Part shown: piece after piece, positions 9,660 through 34,961 of the stretch
Layout of the letters: the number at the start of each line of letters is the position of its first letter
Position numbering within the stretch: position 1 is the first letter of the stretch
DNA from: Candidatus Woesearchaeota archaeon
GTDB taxonomy: Archaea > Nanobdellota > Nanobdellia > SCGC-AAA011-G17 > GW2011-AR18
NCBI GenBank assembly: GCA_018302235.1
Contig: JAGVZW010000035.1
Coordinates: forward strand, 1 to 42,562
Length of the DNA: 42,562 nucleotides
Direction: 5' to 3'
Notes under the pieces: model-generated
What the model was told of the DNA's origin: nothing
Databases searched by the model: none
The model's input: the letters and a program-made list of their open reading frames with translations, nothing else
Position numbers and translations under genes: made by a program

Positions 9660-11993
9660 TTATTTTTTCTTTTTAAAGTAATATATGGCAAATCCTACAG
9701 CTACTAAAATTAATAATATTATTATTGTTAATAGCCATTTTCCTTTTGTTGTTTCTTCTATTATTTCTGTAGGTTCTGCTGTAGGTAATTCTTCTGTAAT
9801 TGAAATTTCTTCTTCACTCGGTACCTCAACACTTGTTTTTGCAGTCACAGCAAAATAACTAAATCCTGGTGTTGTTGCTTTAAATGTTGTATATTCTGAA
9901 TCAGCATTTAGATAATTTGTTTCTAATTCTTGCCAATCATTATCATACCTCATTAATACAATATCACTAATCCCATAGCCATTTTCTTGCATCCATGTAT
10001 TTTCTACTTTAAATGTGATCTCTGCATTTGCTAGATTCTCATCTGTTAATTTATCACTATCTACCTCGAAATATTTGTATACGTCGCCCTCTGGAGAAAC
10101 ACTTCCTGTTTCTGCTGGTTGAACAGTATATTGAGTTAATGTAAATTTAACATCTGATACACCTTCTGTTGTTGTGAAAATAATACTCTCAACCCCAACA
10201 TCTTCATTGCTGATTAATACCTCTGTTGGTGTATTAGCCACTGCGTCTGTAGTAGCAGCAACACTAGCGCCTGCTCCTCCACTTCCACCACCACTTGAAG
10301 AGCTGCTTCCAGATCCTGTATCTGAGACTGATAAGGTTAAAGTTGTTGTGGTTGATCTTGAAACATTATCTTCTCCAGTACATGTTACTGTAAAAGCACC
10401 TGCTTGTGAAGCAATATAGCTAGCTGAACATCCTGTTCCTGTTGTTTCTCCTGTAGTGGTTACTGAACATGAACCTCCTGTGCCAGCATTAACACTCATT
10501 GAAGCGCTCCTTGGATGTAAATCTCCTATTGAACAAGTCAATGTTGTATCTTGACCTAAAGCTAATGTTGTTCCAGCAGAAGAAGTGATAGTGGCTGTTG
10601 GTTTAACATTATCAACAATTATCCTCTTTTGATGGGTACTAACACCTAATTCTCTTGTATCTAACATTATTGCTTGTCCACCAATTACATCAGTACAATT
10701 AATCTCATATTTATAACCAGTACTATTATCTGAGACGTTAATCTTATTAAAAGTCAACATTGGATTTACTCTTTCATCCAAATAACCAGGAGTTATAGTC
10801 TGATTCACAACATAATTTCCATTGAAATCTGCGTATAAACTACAATTATTCCATCTGTTGGTATATGGTGTTGCATTGAATAACAAACCATCATCATCTC
10901 CTCTAATAATGCTTGCGTTTTTATATGAATCTGTTGTACCATTTCTTATAGTTATATTACCAACAAAGAATACATACATTATTGAGCTATTTGTGTTGTT
11001 CACTGAATCTGTTAATGATAGATTCATATAATAAGTTGTATTACTTACAAAATTTACTATTTGCTGAGTCCAATTAATACTAACGTGTTTTCCCATACCA
11101 TAAAATCTACTTTTATTGGTTGTATTAACACTAGCAAAACTCTGGTTACCCCATGTCGTTGAATTCCATAAATCTATTGTTAACTCTGCAGTACTTGTAC
11201 TATTCCAAATAGTTAAATCATTTAAAGTAATATTTAACCAAATCATATTTGGGTATCCAAGGGTCACACCATTAGAATAATTAAAACCTGTTCCATTTAA
11301 CAGAGAGTCATTTACACTATCTCCTCCAAAAATCTCAAATCTTGGTGCTAAGTCGTCTACTGTATAATTAAGATAGGTGACATTCATTACCCCGGCCGAT
11401 GACCTAATTAACCTAATAGAAAATCCCGCTGCATGAGGTATTTCTGTACCTGGAGAGTTAGCACATAATGTGGCTTGAACAATAACAGTACCATTAAGAC
11501 CAGGTACATAATCTGGTTGACCTGTCTTGGTTAAATTAGAACACACAATTTGATTTATATTTATTCCACTAACAACCCCGGTAGCATTCACACCTGTACA
11601 ATTAAAATTAGTTAAATCTACTGGTACTGTAGTAAGAGCACTAGGACTTTGGGTATAATTAACTGTATAATTATTACCATTATAAGTCCATCCTGTAGGT
11701 AAAGATATATTTATAGATGACAAATTTATATGTGTAGTTGCACTTCCCTGTGATACATTTATAAAAAAGGTATAGTTACCACATACTCCTCCTTTTGTAA
11801 CGTTAGCTAATATATTAGAACCCATTATGTTTCCAAGAATCCCTGTACGATTTAACCATTGACCTGTTACATTTTGATTCCAACTAGTACCTGGGATATA
11901 GGTATTTAATGTTGTATCACTAAAAACAATAACACTTAAACTAATTAAAAATAATAACCCGATAAAAAGAATTTTTATATTTCCTTTGTCCAT
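9660..11993 (-). CDS. PGF-pre-PGF domain surface glycoprotein
   Basis: The product has 777 residues: an N-terminal signal/membrane segment (about 7-25), a long beta-type extracellular region, a Ser/Gly linker (~555-577), a PGF-pre-PGF domain (~590-725) and a C-terminal membrane anchor (~751-772) ending in lysines. By hand count there are about 39 N-X-S/T sequons, nearly all before residue 560, so it should be a heavily N-glycosylated surface protein and a likely AglB substrate. The start is fixed by a strong Shine-Dalgarno, GAGGTGAT, 3 nt before the ATG. Its own TATA box lies further upstream, so the leader is ~26 nt. Codon use is richer in GC than its neighbours, as for a highly expressed gene. 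Confidence 0.85.
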   Translation of the reverse strand: MDKGNIKILFIGLLFLISLSVIVFSDTTLNTYIPGTSWNQNVTGQWLNRTGILGNIMGSNILANVTKGGVCGNYTFFINVSQGSATTHINLSSINISLPTGWTYNGNNYTVNYTQSPSALTTVPVDLTNFNCTGVNATGVVSGININQIVCSNLTKTGQPDYVPGLNGTVIVQATLCANSPGTEIPHAAGFSIRLIRSSAGVMNVTYLNYTVDDLAPRFEIFGGDSVNDSLLNGTGFNYSNGVTLGYPNMIWLNITLNDLTIWNSTSTAELTIDLWNSTTWGNQSFASVNTTNKSRFYGMGKHVSINWTQQIVNFVSNTTYYMNLSLTDSVNNTNSSIMYVFFVGNITIRNGTTDSYKNASIIRGDDDGLLFNATPYTNRWNNCSLYADFNGNYVVNQTITPGYLDERVNPMLTFNKINVSDNSTGYKYEINCTDVIGGQAIMLDTRELGVSTHQKRIIVDNVKPTATITSSAGTTLALGQDTTLTCSIGDLHPRSASMSVNAGTGGSCSVTTTGETTGTGCSASYIASQAGAFTVTCTGEDNVSRSTTTTLTLSVSDTGSGSSSSSGGGSGGAGASVAATTDAVANTPTEVLISNEDVGVESIIFTTTEGVSDVKFTLTQYTVQPAETGSVSPEGDVYKYFEVDSDKLTDENLANAEITFKVENTWMQENGYGISDIVLMRYDNDWQELETNYLNADSEYTTFKATTPGFSYFAVTAKTSVEVPSEEEISITEELPTAEPTEIIEETTKGKWLLTIIILLILVAVGFAIYYFKKKK

Positions 11994-29701: not shown

Positions 29702-29732
29702 TTAGAAAGGTTTATATCTTTCTAATTTTTTT
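29701..29732 (+). terminator. Hairpin plus T-run, overlapping the tRNA promoter
   Basis: ATTAGAAAG (29701-29709) pairs perfectly with CTTTCTAAT (29718-29726) and is followed by a run of T, like an intrinsic terminator for tldE. The loop holds GTTTATAT, a TATA-like box ~29 nt before the tRNA start. One 32-nt element seems to end one transcript and start the next. Confidence 0.5.
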
Positions 29733-29741
29733 AAAAAATAT

Positions 29742-29843
29742 GCACTAGTAGTCTAATGGCTAGGAGTTACCCTACTTTTGTAAGGGACTAGTAAATAGAA
29801 GCCTTCCAAGCTTCTGGTCGGGGTTCGAATCCCCGCTAGTGCA
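29742..29843 (+). tRNA. tRNA-Gly(UCC) with a D-arm intron
   Basis: A 7-bp acceptor stem (GCACTAG/CTAGTGC) with discriminator A; T-arm CGGGG-TTCGAAT-CCCCG; anticodon arm GAAGC-CTTCCAA-GCTTC, so anticodon TCC reads GGA (Gly). Removing 29765-29794 gives a 72-nt tRNA with a D-stem GTCT/GGAT and a textbook D-loop AATGGCTA. CCA is not encoded. A TATA-like TTTATAT is ~29 nt upstream. Glycine identity is supported by C35, C36 and A73. Confidence 0.9.
29765..29794 (+). other. Non-canonical tRNA intron (30 nt), D-arm position about 23/24
   Basis: A relaxed bulge-helix-bulge can be drawn. GCTA (29759-29762) pairs with TAGT (29789-29792, one G-U pair), with 3-nt bulges GGA (29763-29765) and AAA (29793-29795). 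The intron's own stem is CCCT/AGGG. Cutting after the second bulge base on each side gives exactly the intron needed for a normal D-arm. A shift by one base leaves the same mature tRNA. Confidence 0.75.
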
Positions 29844-33496: not shown

Positions 33497-34390
33497 TTAA
33501 AATGTTTTTAATATTACTTGTCCTTTGAGTTTATTAGATAAAATTTCATTTGCTTTTTGTGTGGTTTTTTTTGTATTGCTTAGATAGATTACTGGTAAAT
33601 GTTTTTGTTGACCTTCTGCATATGCTAAAAATAGATCTTTATCATTTACACTTCTTTGATCTTTTGCTTTTAACAAAAATGTTAAAAAACCTATTTTTGA
33701 AGGTATTCTCACTACAAAATTAAATTCTTTTGCTTTATTTATAGTTTCCATTGATAATAATTCTATATCGTTTTCGGATAAAAAATTTAATACTTTGTTA
33801 TAAAACTGTCCTTCTGCTGGGACTATTTTCTTTTTTTGTGGTTTTTCTACTTCTTTTTTTATTGGTTCAAAAATTAATTGTTTTTCTTCTGGTTTTTGTT
33901 CTACTGTGTTTTCTTGTTCAGACTTTTCTATTTTGGGTTGTTCTTCTTTAAGTAAATTATATATACTTTCTTTTGCAGAATCATTAGTCATTAAATGAAA
34001 TTTCCAGAATATTTCATTACCATTTTTTGTTATAACTTGGAGGGGAATAGCAAAGTCTTTTAGATTTGATAGGGCGACTCTTTGCCATGGTTCTAATTGA
34101 GATTCTTTTAATATTTGTTTATCATTTAGAAGGATATATGCTTGTTTTTCTTTTTCTTTTAAATACTCAAAGACCTTATCTTTTAATTTGTCTTCTTGAC
34201 CTTCTATATAATAAACTGGAGAAGATCCTATTTTTGAATGACTTATTCTAATTAATTTTCTGGCTACTAGCTCAGAAAGCATTGCTGAAGCAAAAATTAT
34301 ATCGGTATTTATATGCTTTGATACCTGGATTGGAAGGACTGGGCCCATTAATTTTATGTATTGTATTATTTTCTCTCTTGTATCTGTCAT
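33497..34390 (-). CDS. Winged-helix protein with possible nuclease-fold C-terminus
   Basis: 297 residues. The first ~75 look like a winged helix (EKIIQYIKLMGPVLPIQVSK, then SELVARKLIRIS). A charged Glu/Lys/Gln-rich linker (~145-195) follows. A C-terminal domain (200-297) has FVVRIPSKIGFLTFLLKAKDQ and DLFLAYAEGQQKHLPVIYLS, which hint at a restriction-endonuclease-like fold without a complete visible catalytic triad. The function is unknown; DNA or RNA binding is likely. It lies 23 bp upstream of the U32 gene and 46 bp downstream of endA. Confidence 0.6.
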   Translation of the reverse strand: MTDTREKIIQYIKLMGPVLPIQVSKHINTDIIFASAMLSELVARKLIRISHSKIGSSPVYYIEGQEDKLKDKVFEYLKEKEKQAYILLNDKQILKESQLEPWQRVALSNLKDFAIPLQVITKNGNEIFWKFHLMTNDSAKESIYNLLKEEQPKIEKSEQENTVEQKPEEKQLIFEPIKKEVEKPQKKKIVPAEGQFYNKVLNFLSENDIELLSMETINKAKEFNFVVRIPSKIGFLTFLLKAKDQRSVNDKDLFLAYAEGQQKHLPVIYLSNTKKTTQKANEILSNKLKGQVILKTF

Positions 34391-34436
34391 AAAATTTTAA
34401 TTATATTTGAGTTTAAAAGAATTTTGGATTTCTGAA

Positions 34437-34961
34437 TTATGGTTTTATCCATTTAACTTCATAATATGTTACACAGTCTTCTACATCAACAATACCCAAT
34501 AATAATCTTTTTTTGGTTGAATGGGCTACCCTGTTTTTTGCAGCAAAATCATACCATGTAAGTGTTTCCCCCTCAGAAATTGGATAAACTACCCATTTAG
34601 CATGATCTTCACCTGGTTTTACTCCTCTCTCATAAACTCTAAAATCTGCACCGAATTTGAGGGCTGTTTTTACAATATACCCTCTTTTTCTTAGGTCTTT
34701 AAATACAGAATAACGAATCTTAAAATTTGGTTCTAGTTTAAGTGATTTTTTTAAAAATTGTTCATAATTTAATATATTTCTTCCTGATTTAACGATAAAT
34801 TTTTGCCTTTCTAAAAGATATAAAGCCTCTAATAGTGAATATTGAAATTGTTTTTCTATTGGTTCTCCATACCTTGATTTATCATATAGATCCCTAGTTA
34901 GATCATTAGACTCTGTAAGTATTATATTACCTATCCATGTTGCTTCAACGTTTTCTTCCAT
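34437..34961 (-). CDS. endA: tRNA-splicing endonuclease EndA
   Basis: 174 residues, the usual length of a single-domain archaeal catalytic subunit. The RNase triad is visible as Y110 (FRVYERG), H120 (GEDHAKW) and K151 (HSTKKR), with the same 10- and 31-residue spacings as the M. jannaschii enzyme. It cuts bulge-helix-bulge introns. A tRNA with such an intron lies 4.6 kb away in this window. It is divergent from the RNase Z gene across only 52 bp. Confidence 0.93.
   Translation of the reverse strand: MEENVEATWIGNIILTESNDLTRDLYDKSRYGEPIEKQFQYSLLEALYLLERQKFIVKSGRNILNYEQFLKKSLKLEPNFKIRYSVFKDLRKRGYIVKTALKFGADFRVYERGVKPGEDHAKWVVYPISEGETLTWYDFAAKNRVAHSTKKRLLLGIVDVEDCVTYYEVKWIKP

Follow-up and report, generated by a model that had tools for sequence, protein, structure and literature searches.

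Does a tRNA gene whose D-stem is split by 30 extra bases encode a working tRNA, and how would the extra bases be removed? The locus at 29742–29843 raises this question, as its sequence and coordinates describe a tRNA-Gly(UCC) gene whose D-stem contains 30 surplus bases in its 3' strand. The gene lies in a stretch of 42,562 nucleotides (hereafter the window), contig C13 of a genome of 816 kb and 37 contigs. ARAGORN and Rfam detect no other tRNA in the window. The gene is read as follows:

29742–29843, plus strand: pre-tRNA-Gly(UCC) gene including the discriminator base A (sequence, cloverleaf scan, homologues)
29742–29764, plus strand: 5' exon, tRNA positions 1–23 (cloverleaf scan; intronless orthologues, e.g. 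L138)
29765–29794, plus strand: 30-nt intron at 23/24, shift-equivalent to 29766–29795 at 24/25 (cloverleaf scan, BHB shuffle tests)
29795–29843, plus strand: 3' exon, positions 24–73, with the anticodon TCC at 29805–29807 (sequence, pattern search, cloverleaf scan)
29711–29717, plus strand: TATA-like box TTTATAT, about 25–31 bases upstream of the tRNA (read by eye)

Every contiguous deletion of 0–45 nt within 29742–29843 was scored against the cloverleaf (21 pairs) and the invariant bases (nine conserved features). A single best mature tRNA-Gly(UCC) is obtained, with a score of 58/60, when 30 nt are taken out at 29765–29794 (junction 23/24) or, equivalently, at 29766–29795 (junction 24/25); the two removals give identical mature RNA. 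The product reads GCACTAG TA GTCT AATGGCTA GGAT A GAAGC CTTCCAA GCTTC TGGT CGGGG TTCGAAT CCCCG CTAGTGC A. Its acceptor (7/7), anticodon (5/5), and T arms (5/5) are fully paired, and the removal restores the D-stem GTCT/GGAT, with G-U pairs at 13:22 and 10:25. The exhaustive scan yields no fitting intronless reading of 29742–29843. The unique best cloverleaf confirms what the earlier note had claimed, namely a tRNA-Gly(UCC) with its intron in the D-arm instead of the anticodon loop and with perfect acceptor, anticodon, and T arms; a better alternative fold, the possibility raised there, does not emerge. The sole Rfam match in the window is the tRNA, and a group I intron is not matched. In any case, 30 nt is far too short for a self-splicing group I intron.

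The same note had warned that a scanner may misread or miss the gene. ARAGORN calls an intronless tRNA-Gly at 29770–29842, the start of which falls inside the intron, and the Rfam match covers 29785–29843 only, that is, the 3' part of the gene. Therefore, the predicted misreading does occur. The ARAGORN call is also what speaks for an alternative in which the extra bases are retained in an oversized D-arm, or in which the true gene is the intronless reading at 29770–29842. However, that reading throws away the perfectly paired 5' acceptor strand at 29742–29748, no cloverleaf that keeps the insert fits in the deletion scan, and Gly(UCC) orthologues without the insert exist; we regard it as scarcely credible. 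For the Gly(UCC) gene, a scanner that lacks models of non-canonical introns thus returns a wrong but plausible gene, and the tRNA sets of such archaea, which are mostly known from metagenomes, will seem to have gaps or oddities as long as introns in the tRNA body are left out of the models.

A bulge-helix-bulge (BHB) structure is possible at the intron, its central helix being 4 bp long and each of its two bulges 3 nt. The BHB test puts the cut between the second and third bases of each bulge and uses exon boundaries chosen to restore the cloverleaf, which gives the following elements:

29759–29762, plus strand: exon strand GCTA of the 4-bp central helix (BHB test)
29763–29765, plus strand: 5' bulge GG^A with the 5' cut (BHB test)
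29766–29788, plus strand: intron hairpin GU(UA)CCCUAC-UUUU-GUA(A)GGGAC (energy evaluation; a close variant appears in folding)
29789–29792, plus strand: intron strand TAGT of the central helix (BHB test)
29793–29795, plus strand: 3' bulge AA^A with the 3' cut (BHB test)

Shuffled introns with the same flanks match the BHB score in about 1.5–2% of cases. The site departs from the strict hBHBh' motif, as the inner hairpin is interrupted and the outer helix is absent. In addition, the minimum-energy fold of the precursor has −37.3 kcal/mol, compared with −32.6 kcal/mol when the BHB is enforced, a cost of 4.7 kcal/mol. Therefore, the motif is a relaxed one. A relaxed BHB with cuts that restore the D-arm had been proposed before, and the helix GCTA/TAGT, the bulges GG^A and AA^A, and the restored D-stem agree with that proposal.

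The predicted BHB geometry favours junction 23/24 over 24/25. Excision at a slightly different junction, for example with the D-arm shorter by one base or longer by two, is unlikely. A 31-nt deletion from 29764 or a 28-nt deletion from 29767 loses just a single point against the best score of the cloverleaf scan, and the orthologue L145 favours 22/23. However, the same D-arm, GTCTAATGGCCAGGATA, is found in the intronless orthologue L138, and cutting the BHB behind the second base of each bulge yields a D-arm of the L138 type.

A pattern built on the anticodon-to-T-loop segment of Gly(UCC) retrieves 19 genes when applied to 61 genomes of the order. Eight of the 19, the gene in the window included, carry a D-arm intron at the corresponding place (the others are L127, L134, L135, L136, L139, L140, and L145), and 11 do not (L128–L132, L137, L138, and L141–L144); the exon sequence of the intronless genes is common with that of 29742–29843. 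The fraction 8/19 is not an estimate of prevalence in the order, because genomes negative for the pattern may carry other introns or sequence changes. The intron-bearing genes are spread over families f1, f2, f10, f12, f13, and f16, and their introns vary in sequence and in length (14–30 nt). In seven of the eight introns, BHB complementarity exceeds that of 95% of shuffles. For the seven orthologous introns, the fractions of shuffles that reach the observed score are 0.022 (L127), 0.24 (L134), 0.002 (L135), 0.006 (L136), 0/2000 (L139), 0.045 (L140), and 0.0005 (L145), so that only the intron of L134 presents no clear BHB. When folded without constraints, the minimum-energy structure of L135 coincides exactly with the BHB. 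At least one further Gly(UCC) gene found by BLAST, L011, apparently carries both a D-arm and an anticodon intron.

The extra bases are assigned to the archaeal BHB tRNA introns because the BHB stands above shuffles, the orthologues are either intronless or have a different intron at the site, and one unconstrained fold is exactly the BHB. With a probability of roughly 0.93, the tRNA-Gly(UCC) gene at 29742–29843 is functional and single-copy and carries a 30-nt intron of the archaeal BHB type at 23/24, in the 3' strand of the D-stem, that would be spliced by the endonuclease and RtcB. In the precursor, the D-loop bases GCTA (19–21) would pair with TAGT near the 3' end of the intron and leave the two bulges, and the splicing endonuclease (34437–34961) would cut after the second base of each. 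RtcB would then join the exons, restoring the D-stem, and the expected junction is GGCTAGG joined to ATAGAAGC. Transcription, cleavage, and ligation of the precursor are inferred. An RtcB ligase gene is present on contig C18 as a fragment cut by the contig end.

A broken pseudogene, disabled by the insertion of the 30 bases while Gly(UCC) comes from a different gene, is very improbable. The genome does hold at least one unexplained tRNA-like fragment (C30:5024–5086), but no second Gly(UCC) is found in the genome by pattern search and BLAST, all arms of 29742–29843 are perfectly paired, and at least six families of the order have introns of differing sequence at this site.

The D-arm intron of this Gly(UCC) gene is one more of an already known class. 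Non-canonical positions including 20/21, 22/23, and 25/26 have been described, and Crenarchaeota and Nanoarchaeota are rich in them (PMC4090602); non-canonical tRNA introns occur in Thaumarchaeota (PMC8450103) and Asgard archaea (PMC11291895) as well. The earlier note had held D-arm introns to be known mainly from Crenarchaeota and scarce elsewhere; the richness of Crenarchaeota stands, but the scarcity elsewhere has to be revised in view of Nanoarchaeota, Thaumarchaeota, Asgard archaea, and the 8 of 19 Gly(UCC) genes in this order. The Gly(UCC) intron shares with the non-canonical BHB introns of Thermoproteales, Nanoarchaeota, Thaumarchaeota, ARMAN, and Asgard archaea a short intron in the tRNA body, a (relaxed) BHB, and a cloverleaf restored by its removal; it differs in its junction, 23/24 or 24/25, and in its Woesearchaeota-type host. 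The open literature searched contains no report of such introns for this order.

The gene of the putative processing enzyme lies 4.6 kb from the Gly(UCC) gene:

34437–34961, minus strand: endA, tRNA-splicing endonuclease catalytic (alpha-type) subunit, 174 aa (Pfam PF01974 and PF02778)

Its closest proteins come from contigs mostly labelled Woesearchaeota, for which reason the host is taken to be a Woesearchaeota-type DPANN archaeon, and the nearest solved structure is the alpha chain of Nanoarchaeum equitans (3iey_A). Searches of the genome with Pfam and a profile of 20 relatives detect no paralogue, second subunit, or fused three-unit protein, and most relatives likewise have a single clear endonuclease match. 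The enzyme resembles the (αβ)2 endonuclease of N. equitans (alpha chain 3iey_A, beta chain NEQ261) in having its closest alpha chain there and an aligned Trp171, but differs in that no beta subunit gene is detectable in this genome. Trp171 is invariant in 20 aligned proteins and aligns with the Trp of N. equitans, A. pernix, and 2cv8; it is probably the Trp that a review lists for the (αβ)2 and ε2 endonuclease types (PMC6379350). The endonuclease lacks a CSL or ASL loop with the conserved Lys: the CSL stretch of A. pernix (3p1z_B) corresponds to a 10-residue gap in it, and no long insertion is seen at the place of the CSL loop in 19 relatives. Published work ties CSL/ASL loops and heteromeric endonucleases to diverse introns. 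Two options are left for these substrates, a partner that has diverged strongly or a lone subunit that deals with them without the loop.

Directly downstream of endA, a 297-aa protein is encoded at 33497–34390 on the minus strand, and this neighbour follows within 150 bp of endA in 43 of 64 relatives. Its predicted structure comprises winged-helix-like domains and a domain like that of restriction endonucleases, with matches of the MspJI type. Weak matches to Mrr_cat occur in 8 of 47 members of its family. The neighbour was considered as a hidden beta subunit, which is not supported, as the predicted fold is winged-helix-like and restriction-endonuclease-like and there is no profile similarity to the endonuclease (E 0.25). 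Weak second PF01974 matches in three relatives are not related to this neighbour.

The Rfam search and manual reading of loci yield secure readings of 27 tRNA genes in this genome, which are not a complete catalogue. Nine of them are apparently intronless, and in another seven ARAGORN puts introns only at or close to the canonical position. At least 11 of the 27 have an intron outside 37/38:

Gly(UCC): intron at 23/24
Initiator Met: four apparent introns
Gln(UUG): two introns, one near 8/9 and one in the D-arm
Phe(GAA): intron in the acceptor stem
Arg(UCU): intron next to the D-arm
Ala(UGC), Lys(UUU), Asp(GUC): T-loop intron each
Ile(UAU): introns in the T-loop and at 37/38
Ser(GGA): intron at 30/31
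Ser(UGA): introns at 29/30 and 37/38

Twelve of the 17 introns in these 11 genes pass the BHB shuffle test at 0.05. A 13-nt intron of the Gln gene and the 15-nt intron of Arg(UCU) have no inner helix. The tRNA-Ala(UGC) gene (contig C14, about 10668–10745, minus strand; L149), with a T-loop intron of about 21 nt, sits between rRNA-like sequences read as the end of 16S and the start of 23S. The 16S–23S spacer is the usual place for a working tRNA-Ala gene.

The initiator tRNA-Met gene (contig C14, about 34336–34530, minus strand; L151 and L220) has apparent introns of 31, 31, 27, and 30 nt. Removal of all four gives AGCGGGATAGGGCAGTCAGGAGTGCCCGTCGGGCTCATAACCCGGAGGTCAAAGGTTCAAATCCTTTTCCCGCTA, which is almost the same as the intronless initiator gene L222 of a relative (G043), the differences being one D-loop base and the T-stem. 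The third intron (37/38) falls short in the shuffle test (0.126). Archaeal multi-intron tRNA genes are likewise interrupted by several short introns at known kinds of position, but the maximum in the sources consulted is three per gene (PMC8450103, PMC4033280), compared with the four by which the initiator gene is apparently cut.

Woesearchaeota-type archaea may be a little-noticed hot spot of tRNA disruption, with introns in the acceptor, D, anticodon, and T arms and up to four per gene, all processed by a single alpha-type endonuclease with neither a detectable beta subunit nor a CSL/ASL loop; we give this broader reading an even chance. Co-evolution of endonuclease type with intron diversity has been proposed (PMC6379350, PMC12397907), and many body introns alongside one loop-less endonuclease would be a direct, testable challenge to it. 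The clade-wide intron load and the apparent four-intron gene are of more interest than the Gly(UCC) intron alone.

Some further loci deserve mention. In other genera, the initiator tRNA genes L221 (G059) and L223 (G021) look multiply interrupted, probably by about four introns each. In the present genome, a Leu(UAA)-like locus on contig C16 near 1.1–1.3 kb (L166) seems to need the removal of several introns, one of them at 31/32. The 5' acceptor strand of a Leu(UAG)-like locus on contig C36 (18797–18863, minus strand; L152) seems interrupted and is imperfectly paired. The tRNA-like sequence on contig C30 (L153) resembles a tRNA 3' half in which a hairpin replaces the body, and may be a fragment, a split half, or a pseudogene.
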